Source of the DNA: Magnetospirillum moscoviense
GTDB lineage: Bacteria; Pseudomonadota; Alphaproteobacteria; Rhodospirillales; Magnetospirillaceae
Assembly: GCF_001650635.1 (NCBI RefSeq)
Contig: NZ_LWQU01000139.1
Location: forward strand, 1 to 37,352
DNA length: 37,352 bases
Reading direction: 5' to 3'
Shown here: in pieces, positions 29,102 through 36,754 of the stretch
Position numbering within the stretch: position 1 is the first letter of the stretch
Layout: every line of letters starts with the position of its first letter
Notes under the pieces: model-generated
What the model was told of the DNA's origin: nothing
Seen by the model: the letters and a program-made list of their open reading frames with translations, nothing else
The model's database searches: none
Position numbers and translations under genes: made by a program

Positions 29102-30022
29102 CTACAGGCCGCCGAAACGGGCGTAATAGCTGGGATGGGCCTCGGGAACCGGACCTTCGGCGGTTTCCAGCACCGCCATCAGGTGCTGTTCGGCCGGGGC
29201 CTGAACCAGACGGTAAAGATTGCGGCACAGCTGGCGGGCGGCGGTGCCGGGCCAGTCGGCCCCCAACAATTCGTCGGGCAGCATCGGATCGCGCAGCAAG
29301 GCGCGGCGATAGCCGTGCATCAGCAGCGTGCGCACCACGAAGCAGGTCTGCGGATCCAGGTCGGGATCGTCCTTCAGCGCCTGCCACACCGGCCGGAAGG
29401 TTTCCAGGAACTCGGTGTAGTCGGCGCCCAGGCGGTCCAGGTCCCAGCACGAGCGGATGATGTCGCCCAGGCCTTCCGACGCGGTCAAGGCCAAGGTTTC
29501 CGCCCGCATCACCACCGCGTTGCGGGCCGCCGGCGAATCCGCCAGCAACAGACGCAACGCCGTCTCGTCGGGATCGGGGTGGATCTTGATTCCGGGCGCC
29601 AGTTGGCCGAAGCCCAGCCAGCCCAGGTCACGGCGCAGCGCCTCGCGGTCCTCGCCGGGCGGCACCGCGCCCGAGGTGATCACCAGGGTCCAGCGGCCGT
29701 CCCACGGCCGGGTCGATGGGCGGTAAACGCGCTCGTGCGCGGCCTCGAACCGGCGCCGCCCGCTTTCGGTCAGGCGATAATAGGACCGCCGGCCCAGCTG
29801 GCTGGACACCAGCCATTCTTCCTTCGACAGCCGAAACACCGAGGTCCGCACGATGCGCTCGTTCAAGCCCAAGGGCTCGACCAAGGCGATGACGCTGCCC
29901 AGCCAGGCATTGCCGCCGTGATGGGCGATGGCGTCGCCATAGACGGTGACGATCAGCGACTTCGCCTTCGGCTTCAGGCGGTCGAGCAATCGGGCGACGA
30001 TGGCGGCTTGATCCTGGGTCAT
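29102..30022 (-). CDS. paaX: PaaX-family transcriptional regulator
   Basis: The 306-residue protein matches PaaX, the phenylacetyl-CoA-responsive repressor of phenylacetate catabolism. An N-terminal winged helix (about residues 10-90, with KSLIVTVYGDAI and RIVRTSVFRLSKEEWL) is followed by a PaaX central domain and a C-terminal part with RTLLMHGYRRALLRDPMLPDELLG, LPxELLG being a hallmark. Length is typical (about 300). It is divergent from padB, with a 318-nt gap carrying a perfect inverted repeat over the padB promoter. ATG 30022 was chosen over 30064, which adds unrelated residues. Effector phenylacetyl-CoA is inferred from the family. Confidence 0.92.
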   Translation of the reverse strand: MTQDQAAIVARLLDRLKPKAKSLIVTVYGDAIAHHGGNAWLGSVIALVEPLGLNERIVRTSVFRLSKEEWLVSSQLGRRSYYRLTESGRRRFEAAHERVYRPSTRPWDGRWTLVITSGAVPPGEDREALRRDLGWLGFGQLAPGIKIHPDPDETALRLLLADSPAARNAVVMRAETLALTASEGLGDIIRSCWDLDRLGADYTEFLETFRPVWQALKDDPDLDPQTCFVVRTLLMHGYRRALLRDPMLPDELLGADWPGTAARQLCRNLYRLVQAPAEQHLMAVLETAEGPVPEAHPSYYARFGGL

Positions 30023-30113
30023 CAATAGGCCGGATGGATGCGGGTCGGCGCACATCCTACCCACCGTTTCGCCCGGCGCAATCCCTCAAATTCCCGGCGG
30101 ATTCGTCATTGCG

Positions 30114-30340: not shown

Positions 30341-33103
30341 ATGAGCTTGAAGCAGAAAGCCGTGCCGGAAGCGGTCACCTCGGTTCCCTCCTATTGCTAT
30401 AATTGCGTCTCGGGCCCCGATCTGATGACCGTCCGGGTCAAGGATGGAATCGCCACCGCCATCGCCCCCAACCACGACGCCATCGGCATCCACCCGGCGC
30501 ACGGGCGCCCCTGCGTCAAGGCCTATGGCCTGGTGCAGAAGACCTATAACCCCGACCGCGTCCTGACCCCGATGAAGCGGACCAACCCCAAGAAGGGCCG
30601 CCACGAGGACCCGGGCTTCGTCGCCATCTCGTGGGACGAGGCGCTGGACGCGGTGGCGGCCAAGCTTAAGGACATCGAGGCCACCGGCAAGCTGGACGAG
30701 AATTCCATGCCGCGCGTCGCCGCCACCTTCGGCCATGGCGGCACCCCGGCCAGCTACATGGGCACCTTTCCGGCCTTCCTGGCCGCCTGGGGCGCCATCG
30801 ATTTCAGCTTCGGCTCGGGCCAGGGCGTCAAATGCGTCCATTCCGAACATCTGTACGGCGAATTCTGGCATCGCGCCTTCACCGTCTGCGCCGACACCGT
30901 GCAGACCCGGCTGATCTTGTCGTTCGGCACCAATGTCGAGGTATCGGGCGGCCCGTGCGCGGTGCGCCGCCATGCCGACGCCCGCATCCGCGGCATCAAG
31001 CGCATCCAGATCGAGCCGCATCTGTCGCCGACCGGGGCCTGCTCGGCCGAATGGGTGCCGATCCGCCCCAAGACCGACGCCGCCTTCATGCTGGCGATGG
31101 TCCACGTCCTGCTGCACGAGGCCAGGCGCGACCAGTTGGACCTGGCCTTCCTGAAGGACCGCACGGCGTCACCCTATCTGGTCGGCCCCGACGGCTGGTA
31201 TCTGCGCGATCCCGACAGCGGCAAGCCGCTGGTGTGGGACGAGGTTTCCGAACGTGCCGTCCCCCACGACAGCCCCGGCATCCGCCCGGCGCTGGATGGC
31301 ACCTTCGAGGTGCGCAACGTCGCCGCCCACGGTCCCGACGACGAACGCATCGCTTACGACCATGTCGCCGCCCGCTCGGCCTTCCAGGTGATGGGCGACA
31401 CCATGCGCCCCTATACCCCGGAATGGGCTGCCGAGGTGTGCGACGTGCCGGCCGGCACCATCCGCCACGTCGCGACCGAGTTCCTGGACAATGCCTGCAT
31501 CGGCGAGACCATCGTGGTGGGCGGGCGCACCCTGCCGTTCCGCCCGGTGGCGATCACGCTGGGCAAGACCGTCAATAACGGCTGGGGCGCCTTTGAATGC
31601 TGCTGGGCGCGCACCATGCTGGCCTGCCTGGTCGGCGCCCTGGAAGTGCCCGGTGGAACGCTGGGCACCACGGTGCGGCTGAACCGCCCGCACGAGAATC
31701 GCCTGGCCTCGGTCAAGCCCGGCGAGGACGGTTTCATGGCCAACAAGCTGAACGCCACCGGCAAGGGCAAATGGGCCGACAAGCCGACCGGCAGAAACGC
31801 CCACAAGCCGCTGATCCCCATCGTCGGCGATTCCTCGTGGGCCCAGGCCTTGGGGCCGACCCACCTGGCCTGGATGTTCCTGAAGGACGCGCCGAAGGAA
31901 TGGGCCAAGCCCAACCCTCCCGATCTGTGGTTCGCCTTCCGCACCAATCCGGCCATCTCGTTCTGGGACACCGACCAGATCATCGAGAACATGGCCAAGA
32001 TGCCGTTCGTGGTGGCCTTCGCCTATACCATGGACGAAACCAACCACATGGCCGATATCTTGCTGCCCGACGCCACCGATCTGGAAAGCACCCAGATCAT
32101 CCGCGTCGGCGGCACCAAGTTCGTCGAGCAGCATTGGGAACATGCCGGCATCATCATCCGCCAGCCGGCGGTCGAACCCCAGGGCGAGGCCCGTGACTTC
32201 ACCTGGATCACCACCGAGATCTGCCGCCGCGCCGGCCTGCTCGAGGCCTATAACACCGCCATCAACCGGGGCGCCGCCCTGGTGCCCCTGAAGCGCGAGC
32301 ATTACGACTATTCCCTGGCCATCGATCAGGTGCACGACGTCGAGACCATCTGGGACGCGGTGTGTAAGGCCGCGACCCACGAGCTGACCGACGGCGCCGA
32401 CGTCAAGGATCTGGCCTGGCTGAAGACCAACGGCCTGTTCGTGGTGCCCTTCGAGAAGAAGGACTGGTACCTGCTGCCGACCATGGAAGACCAGGGCTTG
32501 CGCTTCGAGATGCCCTATCAGGAACGGCTGCTGAAGGCCGGCATCGAGCTGGGCCGGCGCCTGCACGAACACGACATCCACTGGTGGGACACCCAGCTCA
32601 AGGAATACCAGGCGCTGCCGACCTGGCACGACGTGCCGCACCATTGGCTGAAATCGACCCGCGACCTGGGCGGCCATCCCGACGATTACCCGTTCTGGGC
32701 GGTCACCACCAAGTCGATGCCTTATACCACCGGCAATAATGCCGGCATCCCCTTGATGAACGAGGTGGCGCAGAACCTGCGCGGCCACGGCTCGGTGGTG
32801 ATGAATGCCGGAGCCGCCAAGAAGCTGGGCATCAAGGCCGGCGACTGGGTCGAGGTGCGCTCGCCGATTTCCTTCACCCGTGGCAAGGCCGCCCTGGTCC
32901 AGGGCTGCCGCCCAGACACCATCGTCGTCCAGGGCCAGTACGCCCACTGGAAGACCCCGTACGCCAAGGACCTGAACTTCCCGTCGCTGAACAAGGTGAT
33001 CCCGCTGTCGATGGAACTGACCGACGCCACCGGATCGGGCGCCGATCTGGTCCGCGTCTCGGTGACCAAGGTCGATGGCCCGCTGGCGGAGGACGCCCGA
33101 TGA
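30341..33103 (+). CDS. padB: Molybdopterin oxidoreductase catalytic subunit, PadB-like phenylacetyl-CoA:acceptor oxidoreductase
   Basis: This 920-residue DMSO-reductase-family protein has an N-terminal cluster motif CYNC (Cys19, Cys22) and Cys58; the third cysteine (position 26) is Pro. The predicted Mo ligand is Cys165 in KCVHSEHLYGEF, which aligns with Cys-Mo enzymes such as NapA. A C-terminal molybdopterin dinucleotide-binding domain follows (NNAGIPLMNEVAQNLRGHGSVVMN). No twin-arginine signal is present, so the enzyme faces the cytoplasm, as a CoA-thioester oxidase requires. Size, subunit set and the divergent paaX support PadB, which oxidises phenylacetyl-CoA with loss of CoA to phenylglyoxylate. 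Phenylglyoxylate oxidoreductase genes are absent here. Alternatives are other CoA-ester or formate-type oxidoreductases. Confidence 0.75.
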   Translation: MSLKQKAVPEAVTSVPSYCYNCVSGPDLMTVRVKDGIATAIAPNHDAIGIHPAHGRPCVKAYGLVQKTYNPDRVLTPMKRTNPKKGRHEDPGFVAISWDEALDAVAAKLKDIEATGKLDENSMPRVAATFGHGGTPASYMGTFPAFLAAWGAIDFSFGSGQGVKCVHSEHLYGEFWHRAFTVCADTVQTRLILSFGTNVEVSGGPCAVRRHADARIRGIKRIQIEPHLSPTGACSAEWVPIRPKTDAAFMLAMVHVLLHEARRDQLDLAFLKDRTASPYLVGPDGWYLRDPDSGKPLVWDEVSERAVPHDSPGIRPALDGTFEVRNVAAHGPDDERIAYDHVAARSAFQVMGDTMRPYTPEWAAEVCDVPAGTIRHVATEFLDNACIGETIVVGGRTLPFRPVAITLGKTVNNGWGAFECCWARTMLACLVGALEVPGGTLGTTVRLNRPHENRLASVKPGEDGFMANKLNATGKGKWADKPTGRNAHKPLIPIVGDSSWAQALGPTHLAWMFLKDAPKEWAKPNPPDLWFAFRTNPAISFWDTDQIIENMAKMPFVVAFAYTMDETNHMADILLPDATDLESTQIIRVGGTKFVEQHWEHAGIIIRQPAVEPQGEARDFTWITTEICRRAGLLEAYNTAINRGAALVPLKREHYDYSLAIDQVHDVETIWDAVCKAATHELTDGADVKDLAWLKTNGLFVVPFEKKDWYLLPTMEDQGLRFEMPYQERLLKAGIELGRRLHEHDIHWWDTQLKEYQALPTWHDVPHHWLKSTRDLGGHPDDYPFWAVTTKSMPYTTGNNAGIPLMNEVAQNLRGHGSVVMNAGAAKKLGIKAGDWVEVRSPISFTRGKAALVQGCRPDTIVVQGQYAHWKTPYAKDLNFPSLNKVIPLSMELTDATGSGADLVRVSVTKVDGPLAEDAR

Positions 33104-33996
33104 TCAAGACCCGCATCGAGCGCCCCAGCCAGCCCCCCGCCCACGGACCCGAGCAGCCGGCCCCGACGCTGGCCTCGACCGATGTCGAGCGCTGGGCCGA
33201 CGGTCGCCTGGAAGCCTGCCAGGATTGGGTGGCCGAAGAGGTGCCGGTCAGCCTGGACTATAACGGCCTGTCCCACGCGGTGATGCTGGCCAGCCCGGCC
33301 GATCTCGAGGATTTCGCCATCGGCTTCTCGCTGACCGAGGGGCTGGTCGATCACCGCCGCGATATCACCGACATCGCCATCGACACCCTGGAGCGGGGCA
33401 TCCGCATCCGCCTGGACATCACCGGGCGCTGCTTCGCCCGGCTGAAGGAACGCCGCCGCTCGCTGGCCGGGCGCACCGGCTGCGGCCTGTGCGGCACCGA
33501 CAGCCTGGATCAGGTGTTCCGTGACATCCAACCGGTCGCCGCCGACACCTGCTTCCAGCCCGACCGGCTAGCGGTGGCGCTGAACCGGCTGGCCGCCCGC
33601 CAATCCCTGCAGGGCATGACCGGGGCGGCCCATGCCGCCGGCTGGATCGATGCCTTGGGCCAATTGCACCATGTGCGCGAGGATGTCGGCCGCCACAACG
33701 CCCTGGACAAACTGATCGGCGCCTTGGCCCAGGCTGGGCTGGATGCCGGCCAGGGCGCCATGCTGGTCACCAGCCGCGCCAGCTATGAGATGGTGCAAAA
33801 GGCCGCCGCCTCGGGGTGCGGCATGCTGGTGGCGGTGTCGGCCCCCACCGCCCTGGCCATCCGCACCGCGCACGACCTGAACGTCACGCTGGTCGGCTTC
33901 GCCCGCCAGGGCCGCCACACTGTCTATTCCCACGCCTGGCGGCTAGCCGCCGATGGTGACGCGCGCCTGCCGGCCGAACGGGGAGAAATTCGATGA
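33100..33996 (+). CDS. fdhD: FdhD sulfurtransferase for molybdoenzyme maturation
   Basis: The 298-residue protein is FdhD, which accepts persulfide sulfur and places it on Mo-bis-MGD before cofactor insertion. The essential CGLCG (Cys128, Cys131) is intact in a loop, with LASPADLEDFAIGFSLTEG and the cofactor-binding HHVREDVGRHNALDKLIG, TSRASYEMVQKAA and SAPTALAI. FdhD normally serves formate dehydrogenases; no formate dehydrogenase gene is in this window. It overlaps padB (ATGA) and padC (ATGA), so it is made with them, suggesting PadB is its client and carries a sulfido Mo ligand. Confidence 0.93.
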   Translation: MIKTRIERPSQPPAHGPEQPAPTLASTDVERWADGRLEACQDWVAEEVPVSLDYNGLSHAVMLASPADLEDFAIGFSLTEGLVDHRRDITDIAIDTLERGIRIRLDITGRCFARLKERRRSLAGRTGCGLCGTDSLDQVFRDIQPVAADTCFQPDRLAVALNRLAARQSLQGMTGAAHAAGWIDALGQLHHVREDVGRHNALDKLIGALAQAGLDAGQGAMLVTSRASYEMVQKAAASGCGMLVAVSAPTALAIRTAHDLNVTLVGFARQGRHTVYSHAWRLAADGDARLPAERGEIR

Positions 33997-34646
33997 CCCG
34001 CTATGTGATGGTCGCCGACCTGCGCCGGTGCGTCGGCTGCCAGACCTGCACCGCCGCCTGCAAGGAAAACAACGGCACGCCCGTAGGCGTGCAATGGCGC
34101 CGCGTGCTGGACATCGAGGCCGGCGAATATCCCGACGTCAGCCGCGTCTTCCTGCCGACGGGGTGCAATCACTGCGACAAGCCGCCCTGCATGGAGGTAT
34201 GCCCCTCGACCGCCACCGGCAAACGGGCCGACGGACTGGTCACCATCGATTACGACCTGTGTATCGGCTGTTCGTACTGCATCATGGCCTGCCCCTACGA
34301 CGCCCGCTTCAAGGTCGAGGATCTGGCCTATTCCTACGGCGAGGCCAACGCCGCCGACCAGGCCCGCAGCAATCCGGCCGAATTCGACGGCGTGGTGTCG
34401 AAATGCACCTTCTGCATCGACCGCATCGATGCAGGCCTGGCCAAGGGCCTGGTGCCCGGCCGCGACATGGAGGCGACACCCGCCTGCGTCCAGGGCTGCA
34501 TCTCGGGCGCGCTGCGCTTCGGCGATCTGCACGATCCCAACAGCGACGTGTCGCAGCTGATCAAGAACAACAAATATTTCCGCCAACACGAGGAAGAGGG
34601 CACCGGCCCCGGCTTCTATTATCTTTGGGACAAGGGGGCACCATGA
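33993..34646 (+). CDS. padC: 4Fe-4S ferredoxin subunit, PadC-like
   Basis: This 217-residue electron-transfer subunit carries four cysteine groups for four [4Fe-4S] clusters: CVGCQTCTAAC (13-23), CNHCDKPPCMEVC, CIGCSYCIMAC and a split pair CTFC ... CVQGC. This is the DmsB/PadC pattern of the wire between a Mo subunit and a membrane anchor. No Tat or Sec signal, consistent with a cytoplasmic face. It overlaps fdhD and padD by ATGA on each side, giving four coupled cistrons. Confidence 0.88.
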   Translation: MTRYVMVADLRRCVGCQTCTAACKENNGTPVGVQWRRVLDIEAGEYPDVSRVFLPTGCNHCDKPPCMEVCPSTATGKRADGLVTIDYDLCIGCSYCIMACPYDARFKVEDLAYSYGEANAADQARSNPAEFDGVVSKCTFCIDRIDAGLAKGLVPGRDMEATPACVQGCISGALRFGDLHDPNSDVSQLIKNNKYFRQHEEEGTGPGFYYLWDKGAP

Positions 34647-35485
34647 AGCAGATGATCACCGCCAGGCTGCAGAATTCCTGGGACCTGCGCGCCGCGGCCA
34701 ACTTCATCGGCGGCGGCACCGGCACCGGCCTGGTGGTCGCCTCGGGCCTGGGCTGGCTGCTGGGCCTGGACGTCACCCTGCCGCTGCTGGCCGGCCTGGC
34801 CTTTATCGGGCTGGGGCTGTCGATGGTGTGGCTGGAAATCGGCAAGCCGTGGCGGGCGCTGCATGTGTTCTTCCATCCCCAGACCTCGTGGATGACCCGT
34901 GAAGGCATCCTGGCGGCGCCGCTGATGGCGGCCGGCGCCGGCTTCTGGTGGTTCGGCCATCCCGCGCTTTTGGCGGTGGCGGTGTTCTTCTCTGTGGGCT
35001 TCATCTATTGCCAGGCCCGCATCCTGCGGGCCGCCAAGGCGATTCCGGCCTGGTCGCACATCCGCACCGTGCCGCTAATCATGATGACGGCGGCGGCCGA
35101 GGGCACCGGCCTGTTCCTGGTGCTGGGCGAGCCGGCGCCGATGATGGTGTCGGCGGCCCTGGCCATGGCCATGGCCCGCGAGGCCGCGCGTGAGGCCTAT
35201 CGCCTGGCCCTGAAGCGCGATAAGGCGCCCGAGGGCACGCTGGAATGGTTCGTCCGTCCCGAGGTCCGGGTGCTGCAGGCGATCCGCTGGGTGTCGATGG
35301 TGCTGCTGCTGGTCGGCGCCTTCGGCTCGGCCCCGGCGGCCATGGCCGGCGGCTTGCTGGCGGCGCTGACCGGCTGGGGCCTGAAGGTGGTCATGGTCAC
35401 CAAGGCGGCCTTCAATCGCGGTGCCCGTGTGCCGCGCACGCCGGTGCGCGGCCGCGATTCCAGCCGGATCGTACAGCCGCGCTGA
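34643..35485 (+). CDS. padD: Membrane anchor subunit, DmsC/PadD-like
   Basis: The 280-residue protein has about eight hydrophobic segments and resembles DmsC-type anchors, e.g. MVWLEIGKPWRALHVFFHPQTSWMTREG, in which the conserved pattern 'GRPxRxxHxxxNxxxSWLSREx' of DmsC is recognisable. It should anchor the PadB-PadC dimer to the inner membrane and pass electrons to quinone. The ATG at 34643 overlaps the padC stop; a longer frame upstream is antisense-free but unrelated, and rejected. The C-terminus is basic. A degenerate repeat and an IS element begin just downstream. Confidence 0.82.
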   Translation: MKQMITARLQNSWDLRAAANFIGGGTGTGLVVASGLGWLLGLDVTLPLLAGLAFIGLGLSMVWLEIGKPWRALHVFFHPQTSWMTREGILAAPLMAAGAGFWWFGHPALLAVAVFFSVGFIYCQARILRAAKAIPAWSHIRTVPLIMMTAAAEGTGLFLVLGEPAPMMVSAALAMAMAREAAREAYRLALKRDKAPEGTLEWFVRPEVRVLQAIRWVSMVLLLVGAFGSAPAAMAGGLLAALTGWGLKVVMVTKAAFNRGARVPRTPVRGRDSSRIVQPR

Positions 35486-35593: not shown

Positions 35594-36337
35594 TCAGTTC
35601 GGCCTGAAGGGCTGCGGCCACCGATGGAAGTCTGTGTGGGCGCGAATGGTTTCCCTGCCCAAGGCCAAGCACCTTTCTGCGATCACCGTGTCGAGTTCGG
35701 CCTGGGTTTGAAAATGCCTGTTGGCGACGGGTTCATCGACCAGGGGCCACAGGCATTCGGCGGGCTGGAGTTCCGGGCTGTAGGGCGGCAAAAAGACCAG
35801 GATGATGCCATCCGGGACGGCCAGGCCGGCGGGGCCATGCCATCCGGCGTTGTCGAGTACCAGGACGATGACGCGGTCGTGGCCGGCGCCGACGTCCTTG
35901 GCGAAGGTGTCGAGAACGGCTTCGAACAGAGGCTTGTTTACGGCATTGACGAGGTACCACACGGTTTCGCCGCCGGTCGGTTCGACGAAGGCGATGAGGT
36001 GAAGCCATTCGAAACGGTGATGGCCAAGGGCGATGGGACGCTCCCCCACCGGCGCCCAGGCCCGACGATGGACCGGCTTCAGCCCGAGGCGGTGCTCGTC
36101 TGTGGCCCAGACCTCGACCGGCTTGCCGGGGTGGCGGTCACGCGCTTCATTGATCGCCGCGTCGATGTTTTTTTGAGCGTCTCGTGCTCGTCGGCACCGG
36201 CCGCCCGCGGATGGCGCGGACGGGGAACCTGGATCGACCATTCGATCCTCTTCAAGGCATCCCAGCCCCGTTGCGGATGGACCTTGGTCAGGCCAAGCCG
36301 GGCCGCGATCCACGACGCCACCTTGGGACCCGTCCAT
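35594..36337 (-). CDS. IS630 transposase, downstream frame (catalytic DDE domain)
   Basis: This frame carries the three catalytic acids of an IS630 DDE transposase: Asp in VWATDEHRLGL, Asp in VLVLDNAGWHG, and Glu in LQPAECLWPL. It begins inside the first frame; the N-terminal residues before about DAQKNIDAAINEARD are shadow translation. It would be produced as the C-terminal half of a fusion of about 352 residues through -1 frameshifting at an A7 run. The stop at 35594 is next to the left terminal repeat. Confidence 0.85.
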   Translation of the reverse strand: MDGSQGGVVDRGPAWPDQGPSATGLGCLEEDRMVDPGSPSAPSAGGRCRRARDAQKNIDAAINEARDRHPGKPVEVWATDEHRLGLKPVHRRAWAPVGERPIALGHHRFEWLHLIAFVEPTGGETVWYLVNAVNKPLFEAVLDTFAKDVGAGHDRVIVLVLDNAGWHGPAGLAVPDGIILVFLPPYSPELQPAECLWPLVDEPVANRHFQTQAELDTVIAERCLALGRETIRAHTDFHRWPQPFRPN

Positions 36338-36654
36338 AAGCTGCCGTCATCGGGTGGCTCGCGCAGCCGATCCGCCAGCGCCATCAATACCTCGTCGGTC
36401 AGAATCCGCGCCGGACGGCCGTTGCCGCGTCGCAGGTCACCAAGAGACCCAGGGCCATCGACGTTGTAGCGCGCCACCAAAAGTTCAACCCAGCGGGGCG
36501 CGAACCCGAGAACCTCCGCCACCTCGCGGATGCCGCGCCCCTTCGCCAAAAGCCAGATTGCATGATAGTGGCTCTTCGCCACAGTCTCGCTCGAAGACCG
36601 ATAGCAAGCCTCCAACTCCGACACACTCAGATGATCCGCAACCGTAACCGCCAT
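36079..36654 (-). CDS. IS630 transposase, upstream frame (DNA-binding domain)
   Basis: The first frame starts at ATG 36654 with AGAGGAGG 6 nt upstream and encodes helix-turn-helix segments (AIWLLAKGRGIREVAEVLGFAPRWVELLVARYN, then a GRPARILTDEVLMALADRL helix) that bind the IS ends. The useful part runs to the A7 run at 36168-36174; beyond it the frame continues out of register to a stop at 36079. It requires frameshifting to join the catalytic domain. Confidence 0.85.
   Translation of the reverse strand: MAVTVADHLSVSELEACYRSSSETVAKSHYHAIWLLAKGRGIREVAEVLGFAPRWVELLVARYNVDGPGSLGDLRRGNGRPARILTDEVLMALADRLREPPDDGSLWTGPKVASWIAARLGLTKVHPQRGWDALKRIEWSIQVPRPRHPRAAGADEHETLKKTSTRRSMKRVTATPASRSRSGPQTSTASG
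36168..36174 (-). promoter_or_regulatory. Slippery A7 run, probable programmed -1 frameshift site
   Basis: On the coding (minus) strand CTC AAA AAA ACA carries seven A's. The upstream frame reads LKKT here, while the DDE frame reads QKN, which is one base back. IS630 elements are known to express their transposase through such slippage, so the split gene is more likely functional than broken. Confidence 0.65.
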
Positions 36655-36754
36655 GCTCAGCCTCCTCTGCCGAATCATGGCTTCCGATTCTAGATTCTTC
36701 CAACCCCGCCGGGAATCCCTCAAATCACGAATCAATCAACCGGAGTCCGCATCA

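Follow-up and report, generated by a model that had tools for sequence, protein, structure and literature searches.

An fdhD gene within a PadBCD-type operon of Magnetospirillum moscoviense suggests recruitment of a cofactor sulfurtransferase to a molybdoenzyme other than formate dehydrogenase

What is the task of an fdhD gene that resides in the middle of an operon for a molybdenum (Mo) enzyme other than a formate dehydrogenase (FDH)? FdhD is presented as an FDH factor, and for Nap it is described as not known which protein sulfurates the cofactor (PMC10609526). The question is raised by a stretch of 37,352 nt from Magnetospirillum moscoviense (assembly GCF_001650635.1, contig NZ_LWQU01000139.1), which was analysed as a whole and is referred to as the window. 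Here, fdhD is located between padB and padC of a putative phenylacetyl-CoA oxidoreductase operon. As judged from gene orders and phylogenetic trees, our data suggest that a known sulfurtransferase has been recruited to a non-FDH molybdoenzyme, and more than once. The features concerned are the following:

30341–33103, plus strand: padB, predicted catalytic subunit carrying Mo-bis-molybdopterin guanine dinucleotide (Mo-bis-MGD), 920 aa; PF00384 and PF01568; 80 related loci; structure model with a predicted template modelling score (pTM) of 0.83
30833–30835, plus strand: codon of Cys165, the proposed Mo ligand; codon checked, numbering from the ATG at 30341
33100–33996, plus strand: fdhD, predicted bis-MGD cofactor sulfurtransferase, 298 aa; family profiles and structure alignment
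33481–33495, plus strand: CGLCG loop of FdhD; Cys128 aligns with Cys121 of Escherichia coli FdhD
33993–34646, plus strand: padC, predicted ferredoxin-like electron-transfer subunit, 217 aa; Fer4 families
34643–35485, plus strand: padD, presumed membrane anchor subunit, 280 aa; orthologue in the closest relative, genome G079 (84%); start set by script

The initial annotation of this locus had placed fdhD between padB and padC with an ATGA overlap on either side, and inspection of the junctions bears this out: ATGA joins the padB stop to the fdhD start, the fdhD stop to the padC start and likewise the padC stop to the padD start. The start of padB at 30341 is our choice, as the open frame runs longer, from 30125. 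PadB is a protein of the dimethyl sulfoxide reductase family and is no FDH by curated cut-offs, scoring 85.4 bits with TIGR01591 (cut-off 666) and 43.4 bits with TIGR01553 (cut-off 814). No Tat (twin-arginine translocation) motif was seen by eye at its N terminus. PadC resembles the DsrO, TtrB and NrfC profiles, in each case under the cut-off, and PadD had no Pfam match in the family search, its membrane role being assigned by orthology only. Mo, iron-sulfur (FeS) and membrane subunits, the latter by orthology, are thus encoded in one operon, as in PadBCD-type operons. A search covering the PadI subunit of phenylglyoxylate dehydrogenase detected this protein elsewhere in the genome on another contig (849.4 bits, cut-off 700). 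Since PadI is present, assignment to the phenylacetyl-CoA pathway is reasonable. PadB is named by homology only as the putative catalytic subunit of an oxidoreductase that would convert phenylacetyl-CoA to phenylglyoxylate.

By its sequence, the operon-encoded FdhD is a clear member of the FdhD/NarQ family. It scores over the curated cut-offs of PF02634 (252.5 bits, cut-off 27.2) and TIGR00129 (232.1 bits, cut-off 140.9) and under that of NF001943 (190 versus 269), and its residues 28–283 align with the E. coli FdhD structure 4pde (E 4.5e-72). The CGLCG motif is intact, as had been claimed for this gene, and Cys128 therein corresponds to Cys121, described as the essential loop cysteine of E. 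coli FdhD (PMC10609526). The operon FdhD would be predicted to transfer sulfur to bis-MGD and deliver the cofactor to its target.

Which protein is this target? The survey proposed in the initial annotation, namely to look for fdhD next to padB elsewhere, was carried out on 80 padB-like loci, the best matches out of at least 580, a choice that favours near relatives. The linkage recurs in several orders without being constant: fdhD adjoins padB in 52 of the 80 loci and is missing from this place in 28. Among the 52, 29 have fdhD upstream of padB, 11 have it between padB and padC, two have it after padC or padD and one has it in divergent orientation; in a further nine it follows padB with no padC seen (six of these loci with more than 9.8 kb of downstream sequence, three ending within 2.8 kb). 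The distance is within 261 bases in 50 loci and 1.6 kb in the other two. When only loci with at least 2 kb of upstream and 5 kb of downstream sequence are counted, 43 of 58 have linked fdhD, and 39 of 50 of those that also have padC. By simple arithmetic, if two FdhDs were scattered at random over 4.2 Mb, a position within ~2 kb of padB would be expected in ~0.4% of cases. The arrangement is not peculiar to the window either, as Aromatoleum evansii (locus L078) carries fdhD directly upstream of padB, with the FdhD match ending 44 bases before the padB match. Of the 80 loci, 78 come from a total of 77 genomes, and 75 of these genomes encode FdhD somewhere (47/49 plus 28/28), L059 and L066 being outside these counts. 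Within the family of the window, PadB was detected in 23 of 55 genomes (44 copies), and FdhD is present in 22 of these 23 as compared to 19 of the 32 others (Fisher p 0.0036, uncorrected for kinship). Here, fdhD adjoins 19 of the 25 padB copies with at least 65% identity. A search of a plasmid collection returned one distant match (29%).

Other arrangements were also seen. In L003, L041, L052 and L077, a PadB homologue without padC and padD is followed by a divergent FdhD (36–39% identical), and genes resembling those for xanthine-oxidase-family subunits were spotted nearby by eye. At L148 (5296–10675) and L169 (2610–7794), Mo proteins distantly similar to PadB are encoded in operons together with FdhD, an FeS protein and a probable membrane protein; in L148 the order Mo protein, FdhD, FeS protein and membrane protein is the same as in the window, the Mo protein being only distantly like PadB. 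A second group of PadB proteins (L192–L194, L196, L198, L201, L203–L205) is 55–62% identical and has no adjacent FdhD; padC and padD accompany eight of these nine, often in genomes that also carry the first type.

In phylogenetic trees, FdhDs linked to pad genes mostly cluster together. The first tree comprised 110 rows, 54 of them pad-linked and 40 FDH-linked, with repeated copies and one fragment of 83 aa left out. The pad label requires six changes on this tree as compared to 30.5 in shuffles, and none of 500 shuffles was as low. In a second, quicker tree of 108 rows, which included family relatives (15 upstream-type rows dropped, 13 added), ten changes are required versus 34.1 in shuffles. 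FdhD of the window falls into one group with pad-linked FdhDs from other bacteria (94/94, first tree). In the second tree, the FdhDs of the congeners G079, G070, G072 and G077 cluster with FdsA-linked copies on a branch other than that of the window, and that of the congener G075 groups with FDH-N-linked copies. As for the loop, two cysteines are present in all 54 pad-linked FdhDs and in all six linked to other PadB-like proteins, in 21 of 24 labelled as linked to NasA/NapA-like proteins, in five of ten unlinked ones and in none of 16 linked to FDH-N-like proteins. Partner labels were assigned by tblastn. The ‘NasA-like’ identity had to be rejected for the seven proteins tested, all of which score over the FDH cut-off of TIGR01591; five of them, of the FdsA type, adjoin FdhD, the other two (L213 and L215) have no FdhD beside them, and the NasA-like proteins outside these seven keep their tblastn label. 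Of 90 FdhD matches in one genome set, four that were only partial, being at contig ends, were left out. The FdhDs of L098, L149, L153 and L163 fell under the tblastn threshold and are missing from trees and loop counts; they have a single-cysteine loop, and none has PadB among the best matches. Selenocysteine in the FdhDs of G070, G073 and G015 was considered and rejected, as the in-frame TGA lies at the protein end.

To which enzymes could FdhD be assigned in the host genome itself? A whole-genome search detected a single FdhD, namely that of the pad operon, along with the molybdopterin proteins NapA, FDH-N, PadB, NuoG, a NasA-type protein, an oxidoreductase of 704 aa and a SoeA-like protein. 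NapA scores over its profile cut-off. FDH-N contains an in-frame TGA in the motif IUHAP, indicative of selenocysteine, and reaches 943 bits with TIGR01553 (cut-off 814); selB is located on the same contig. NuoG, the NasA-type protein (with a BFD domain), the 704-aa oxidoreductase and the SoeA-like protein were assigned by motif and resemblance only, and no profile model matched the latter two at the limit used. Because this FdhD is the only one found and both a selenocysteine FDH and SelB are present, we assume that it serves FDH as well. FdhD dedicated to PadB in this genome is accordingly rejected as stated. One may go further and propose that FDH is the sole client of this FdhD, and that the location of fdhD among the pad genes is either incidental or useful for co-expression, as both enzymes are made under anoxia. 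The occurrence of a single FdhD beside FDH-N and SelB fits this proposal, as does the sister operon of G079, which manages without fdhD. However, it does not account for a linkage that recurs in 52 of 80 loci and in no fewer than four gene orders, nor for the clustering of pad-linked FdhDs apart from FDH-linked ones, nor for two genomes that have a pad-linked FdhD and no FDH found, and we regard it as decidedly improbable.

These two genomes, G127 and G128, emerged when seven genomes with a single FdhD adjoining padB were searched for molybdopterin proteins. Both are metagenome-assembled genomes whose completeness is not given. Each encodes four such proteins, no FDH was found among them, and the only FdhD found is the pad-linked one; the sets consist of PadB plus NasA, NuoG and SoeA types or of PadB plus NapA, NuoG and DmsA types. 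The NasA-type protein of G127, like NasA of the host, scores below the cut-off of TIGR01591 and carries a C-terminal BFD domain. Among the other five genomes, FdsA-type FDHs are present in G020, G032 and G037 (by the curated cut-off in G020 only), TGA-containing proteins occur in G037 and G111, and G119, the seventh genome, is only partly classified.

If FdhD acts on PadB, the residue that holds Mo becomes relevant. The initial annotation had put Cys165 at the Mo-ligand position. The residue is indeed cysteine in all 80 covering rows of an 81-row PadB alignment (L010 is a gap, its frame being broken in the extraction), and its context GSGQGVKCxHSEH is nearly invariant. Agreement on the ligand position itself is only partial. 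As we read the hhalign alignments, Cys165 falls on the Mo-Cys of NasA and the Mo-selenocysteine of FDH-N; for the 704-aa protein the match is displaced by one residue, and for SoeA it is shifted. In our reading of phmmer alignments, the ligand of ArrA and PsrA falls on Ser159/Gly160, five to six residues before Cys165. The PadB model (pTM 0.83 overall), which in fold comes closest to perchlorate reductase, arsenate reductase and ethylbenzene dehydrogenase, places Cys165 at the start of helix 162–173. The predicted local distance difference test (pLDDT) values are below 50 at residues 158–166, and the model was rejected as proof of the ligand, as it is poor exactly there. Mo could instead be held by a neighbour such as Ser159, in which case the cofactor would differ from that of FDH and FdhD would have another role. 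The invariance of Ser159, the phmmer placement of the presumed ArrA/PsrA Mo-Cys, the shifted SoeA alignment and the low pLDDT would agree with such an arrangement. On the other side, hhalign superimposes Cys165 on the presumed Mo ligands of NasA and FDH-N, and Cys165 sits at the helix start. Overall, we consider a Ser159-type ligand highly improbable and Cys165 the likely Mo ligand of PadB.

The N-terminal cluster motif of PadB (window 30395–30514) consists of Cys19, Cys22, Asp27 and Cys58, Asp27 being aspartate in all 79 covering rows. As Asp27 is conserved and only three cysteines are present, the first FeS cluster of PadB may have an aspartate ligand or be otherwise unusual.

Several observations weigh against FdhD as a constant and dedicated partner of PadB. 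The closest relative, G079 (PadB 87%, PadC 91% identical), has padB and padC joined by ATGA with no fdhD in between, and its FdhD, 41% identical, is encoded on another contig. In view of the ATGA junction in this sister operon, fdhD is a cassette that has been either gained or lost cleanly in this lineage. The 28 surveyed loci without adjacent fdhD all keep Cys165. None of the 19 family PadB copies below 65% identity has adjacent fdhD, to which contig ends may contribute. In the family, 19 copies were read, nine of these with under 65% identity, and every one retains the cysteine. No FdhD was found in G044 and G046 (two of the 77 genomes, completeness not given), nor in G098, which is 99% complete, keeps padBCD with Cys165 and also encodes an FDH. 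This FDH gene, of the FdsA type, is located on G098:C52 (L215, L242). An FDH without FdhD would be unexpected from what is known of these enzymes, unless the assembly has a gap here; as FDH is left without FdhD there as well, G098 is not a clean test of the need for FdhD. In addition, some FDH-linked FdhDs sit among pad-linked ones in the trees, which indicates that partners were exchanged, and the presence of FDHs confounds all counts of FdhD/PadB co-occurrence. Finally, as said above, the operon FdhD of the host probably serves the selenocysteine FDH too. Since Cys165 is kept in unlinked loci, PadB persists without adjacency and adjacency is therefore not needed; supply of FdhD in trans would explain most of these loci. 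The combination named beforehand as speaking against sulfuration of PadB, absence of fdhD together with a ligand other than cysteine, was not seen in the loci read.

Taken together, the recurrent linkage, the clustering of pad-linked FdhDs, their two-cysteine loops and the two genomes without a detected FDH support the view that FdhD serves PadB. The functional link drawn in the initial annotation thus holds in a weaker form, with a linkage that is inconstant and an FdhD that is not dedicated. With moderate confidence, we favour the explanation that FdhD has been recruited to sulfurate the PadB cofactor and is replaceable in trans. In this mechanism, FdhD would take sulfur from a cysteine desulfurase, load it onto Mo-bis-MGD and pass the sulfurated cofactor to PadB, where Mo would be held by Cys165. 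The Mo=S group, which we infer for PadB along with a need for sulfuration, could then accept the alpha-hydrogen of phenylacetyl-CoA as hydride, with oxygen coming from water, comparable to Mo=S in FDH and xanthine oxidase. Co-location of fdhD would provide dosage and coupled synthesis and be optional; at loci lacking it in the operon, another FdhD would act in trans, and in the host the pad-encoded FdhD would also serve the selenocysteine FDH.

Alternatively, FdhD may act on PadB solely as a chaperone that binds bis-MGD and assists its insertion in place of a TorD/NarJ-type protein, leaving Mo without a functional sulfido ligand. FdhD is reported to bind bis-MGD, the E. coli and R. capsulatus proteins can replace TorD for TorA in vitro, and the cysteines are missing from some FdhDs (PMC10609526). 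However, cofactor insertion is described as unimpaired without FdhD (PMC10609526), and the two-cysteine loop is retained throughout the 54 pad-linked FdhDs of the tree, a point that is weakened by the case of R. capsulatus. A role as chaperone only is considered unlikely.

More tentatively, FdhD may not be confined to FDHs, and sulfuration might extend from PadB to a wider group of Mo-bis-MGD enzymes, which would oxidize C-H bonds of CoA thioesters with water. Conceivably, this group comprises PadB itself, its form that lacks padC and neighbours xanthine-oxidase-like genes, and the distant Mo/FeS/membrane complexes that have their own fdhD. Its members might use Mo=S as hydride acceptor rather than oxo chemistry as in ethylbenzene dehydrogenase, and FdhD lineages might have been recruited several times. 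If PadB is indeed sulfurated by FdhD, a sulfido ligand would be involved in the water-dependent oxidation of a C-H bond in an acyl-CoA. Purification and production of PadBCD would change, with co-expression of FdhD and attention to its sensitivity towards oxygen and cyanide, and further sulfurated enzymes could then be listed from gene neighbourhoods.

Upstream of padB, the window contains two features:

29102–30064, minus strand: paaX, predicted phenylacetate-type repressor, divergent from padB; TIGR02277 308.6 bits (cut-off 264.55), PF07848/PF20803/PF08223
30125–30154, plus strand: sigma-70-like promoter match upstream of padB, TTGACC-18-TATATT, 10/12; consensus match only

The promoter scan gave one match versus 0.6 expected in shuffles, and promoter and terminator scans contribute little. 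A DUF2478 gene lies beyond paaX. An IS630-like transposase is encoded directly 3' of padD in two overlapping frames (35594–36735, minus strand). Further away, between 14856 and 23695, there are two AMP-binding ligase-like genes, ABC transporter genes (branched-chain-type permease, binding protein) and an aldehyde dehydrogenase gene, for which aromatic acid uptake and activation is a plausible role.

How does this locus compare with known systems? Among the open-access full texts searched, none has FdhD and PadB together as whole words, and the excerpts of open-access texts naming both FdhD and phenylacetyl-CoA draw no link between them. For FDH, the Mo=S group is described as a requirement of hydride transfer; cyanide sets it free as thiocyanate, and its insertion involves FdhD/FdsC (PMC12140954, PMC10609526), and the role of a sulfido ligand outside FDH is debated (PMC12140954). 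FdhD of the window resembles E. coli FdhD (4pde) in its conserved CxxC loop, Cys128 lying on Cys121; the E. coli protein serves three FDHs (PMC10609526), whereas the window gene lies between genes for PadBCD subunits. FdsC/FdhD of R. capsulatus is likewise a chaperone of the FdhD family, with FDH as its partner, and FDH produced in its absence has no catalytic competence, although its sulfur can be restored in vitro (PMC12140954). The PadBCD enzymes of Thauera aromatica and Aromatoleum have the same Mo, FeS and presumed membrane subunits, with a paaX-type regulator gene nearby. In A. evansii, whose PadB is 66% identical, fdhD is found directly upstream of padB, whereas it lies between padB and padC in the window. 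A further counterpart is XdhC, which binds Mo-molybdopterin, not bis-MGD, and is not known to belong to the FdhD family. It likewise acts as a dedicated chaperone for cofactor sulfuration and delivery, in this case for xanthine dehydrogenase (PMC10609526). Finally, ORM2a has an fdhD in its bam (benzoyl-CoA reductase) cluster, and the protein was detected alongside an enzyme of anaerobic aromatic metabolism that is not an FDH (PMC13101534).

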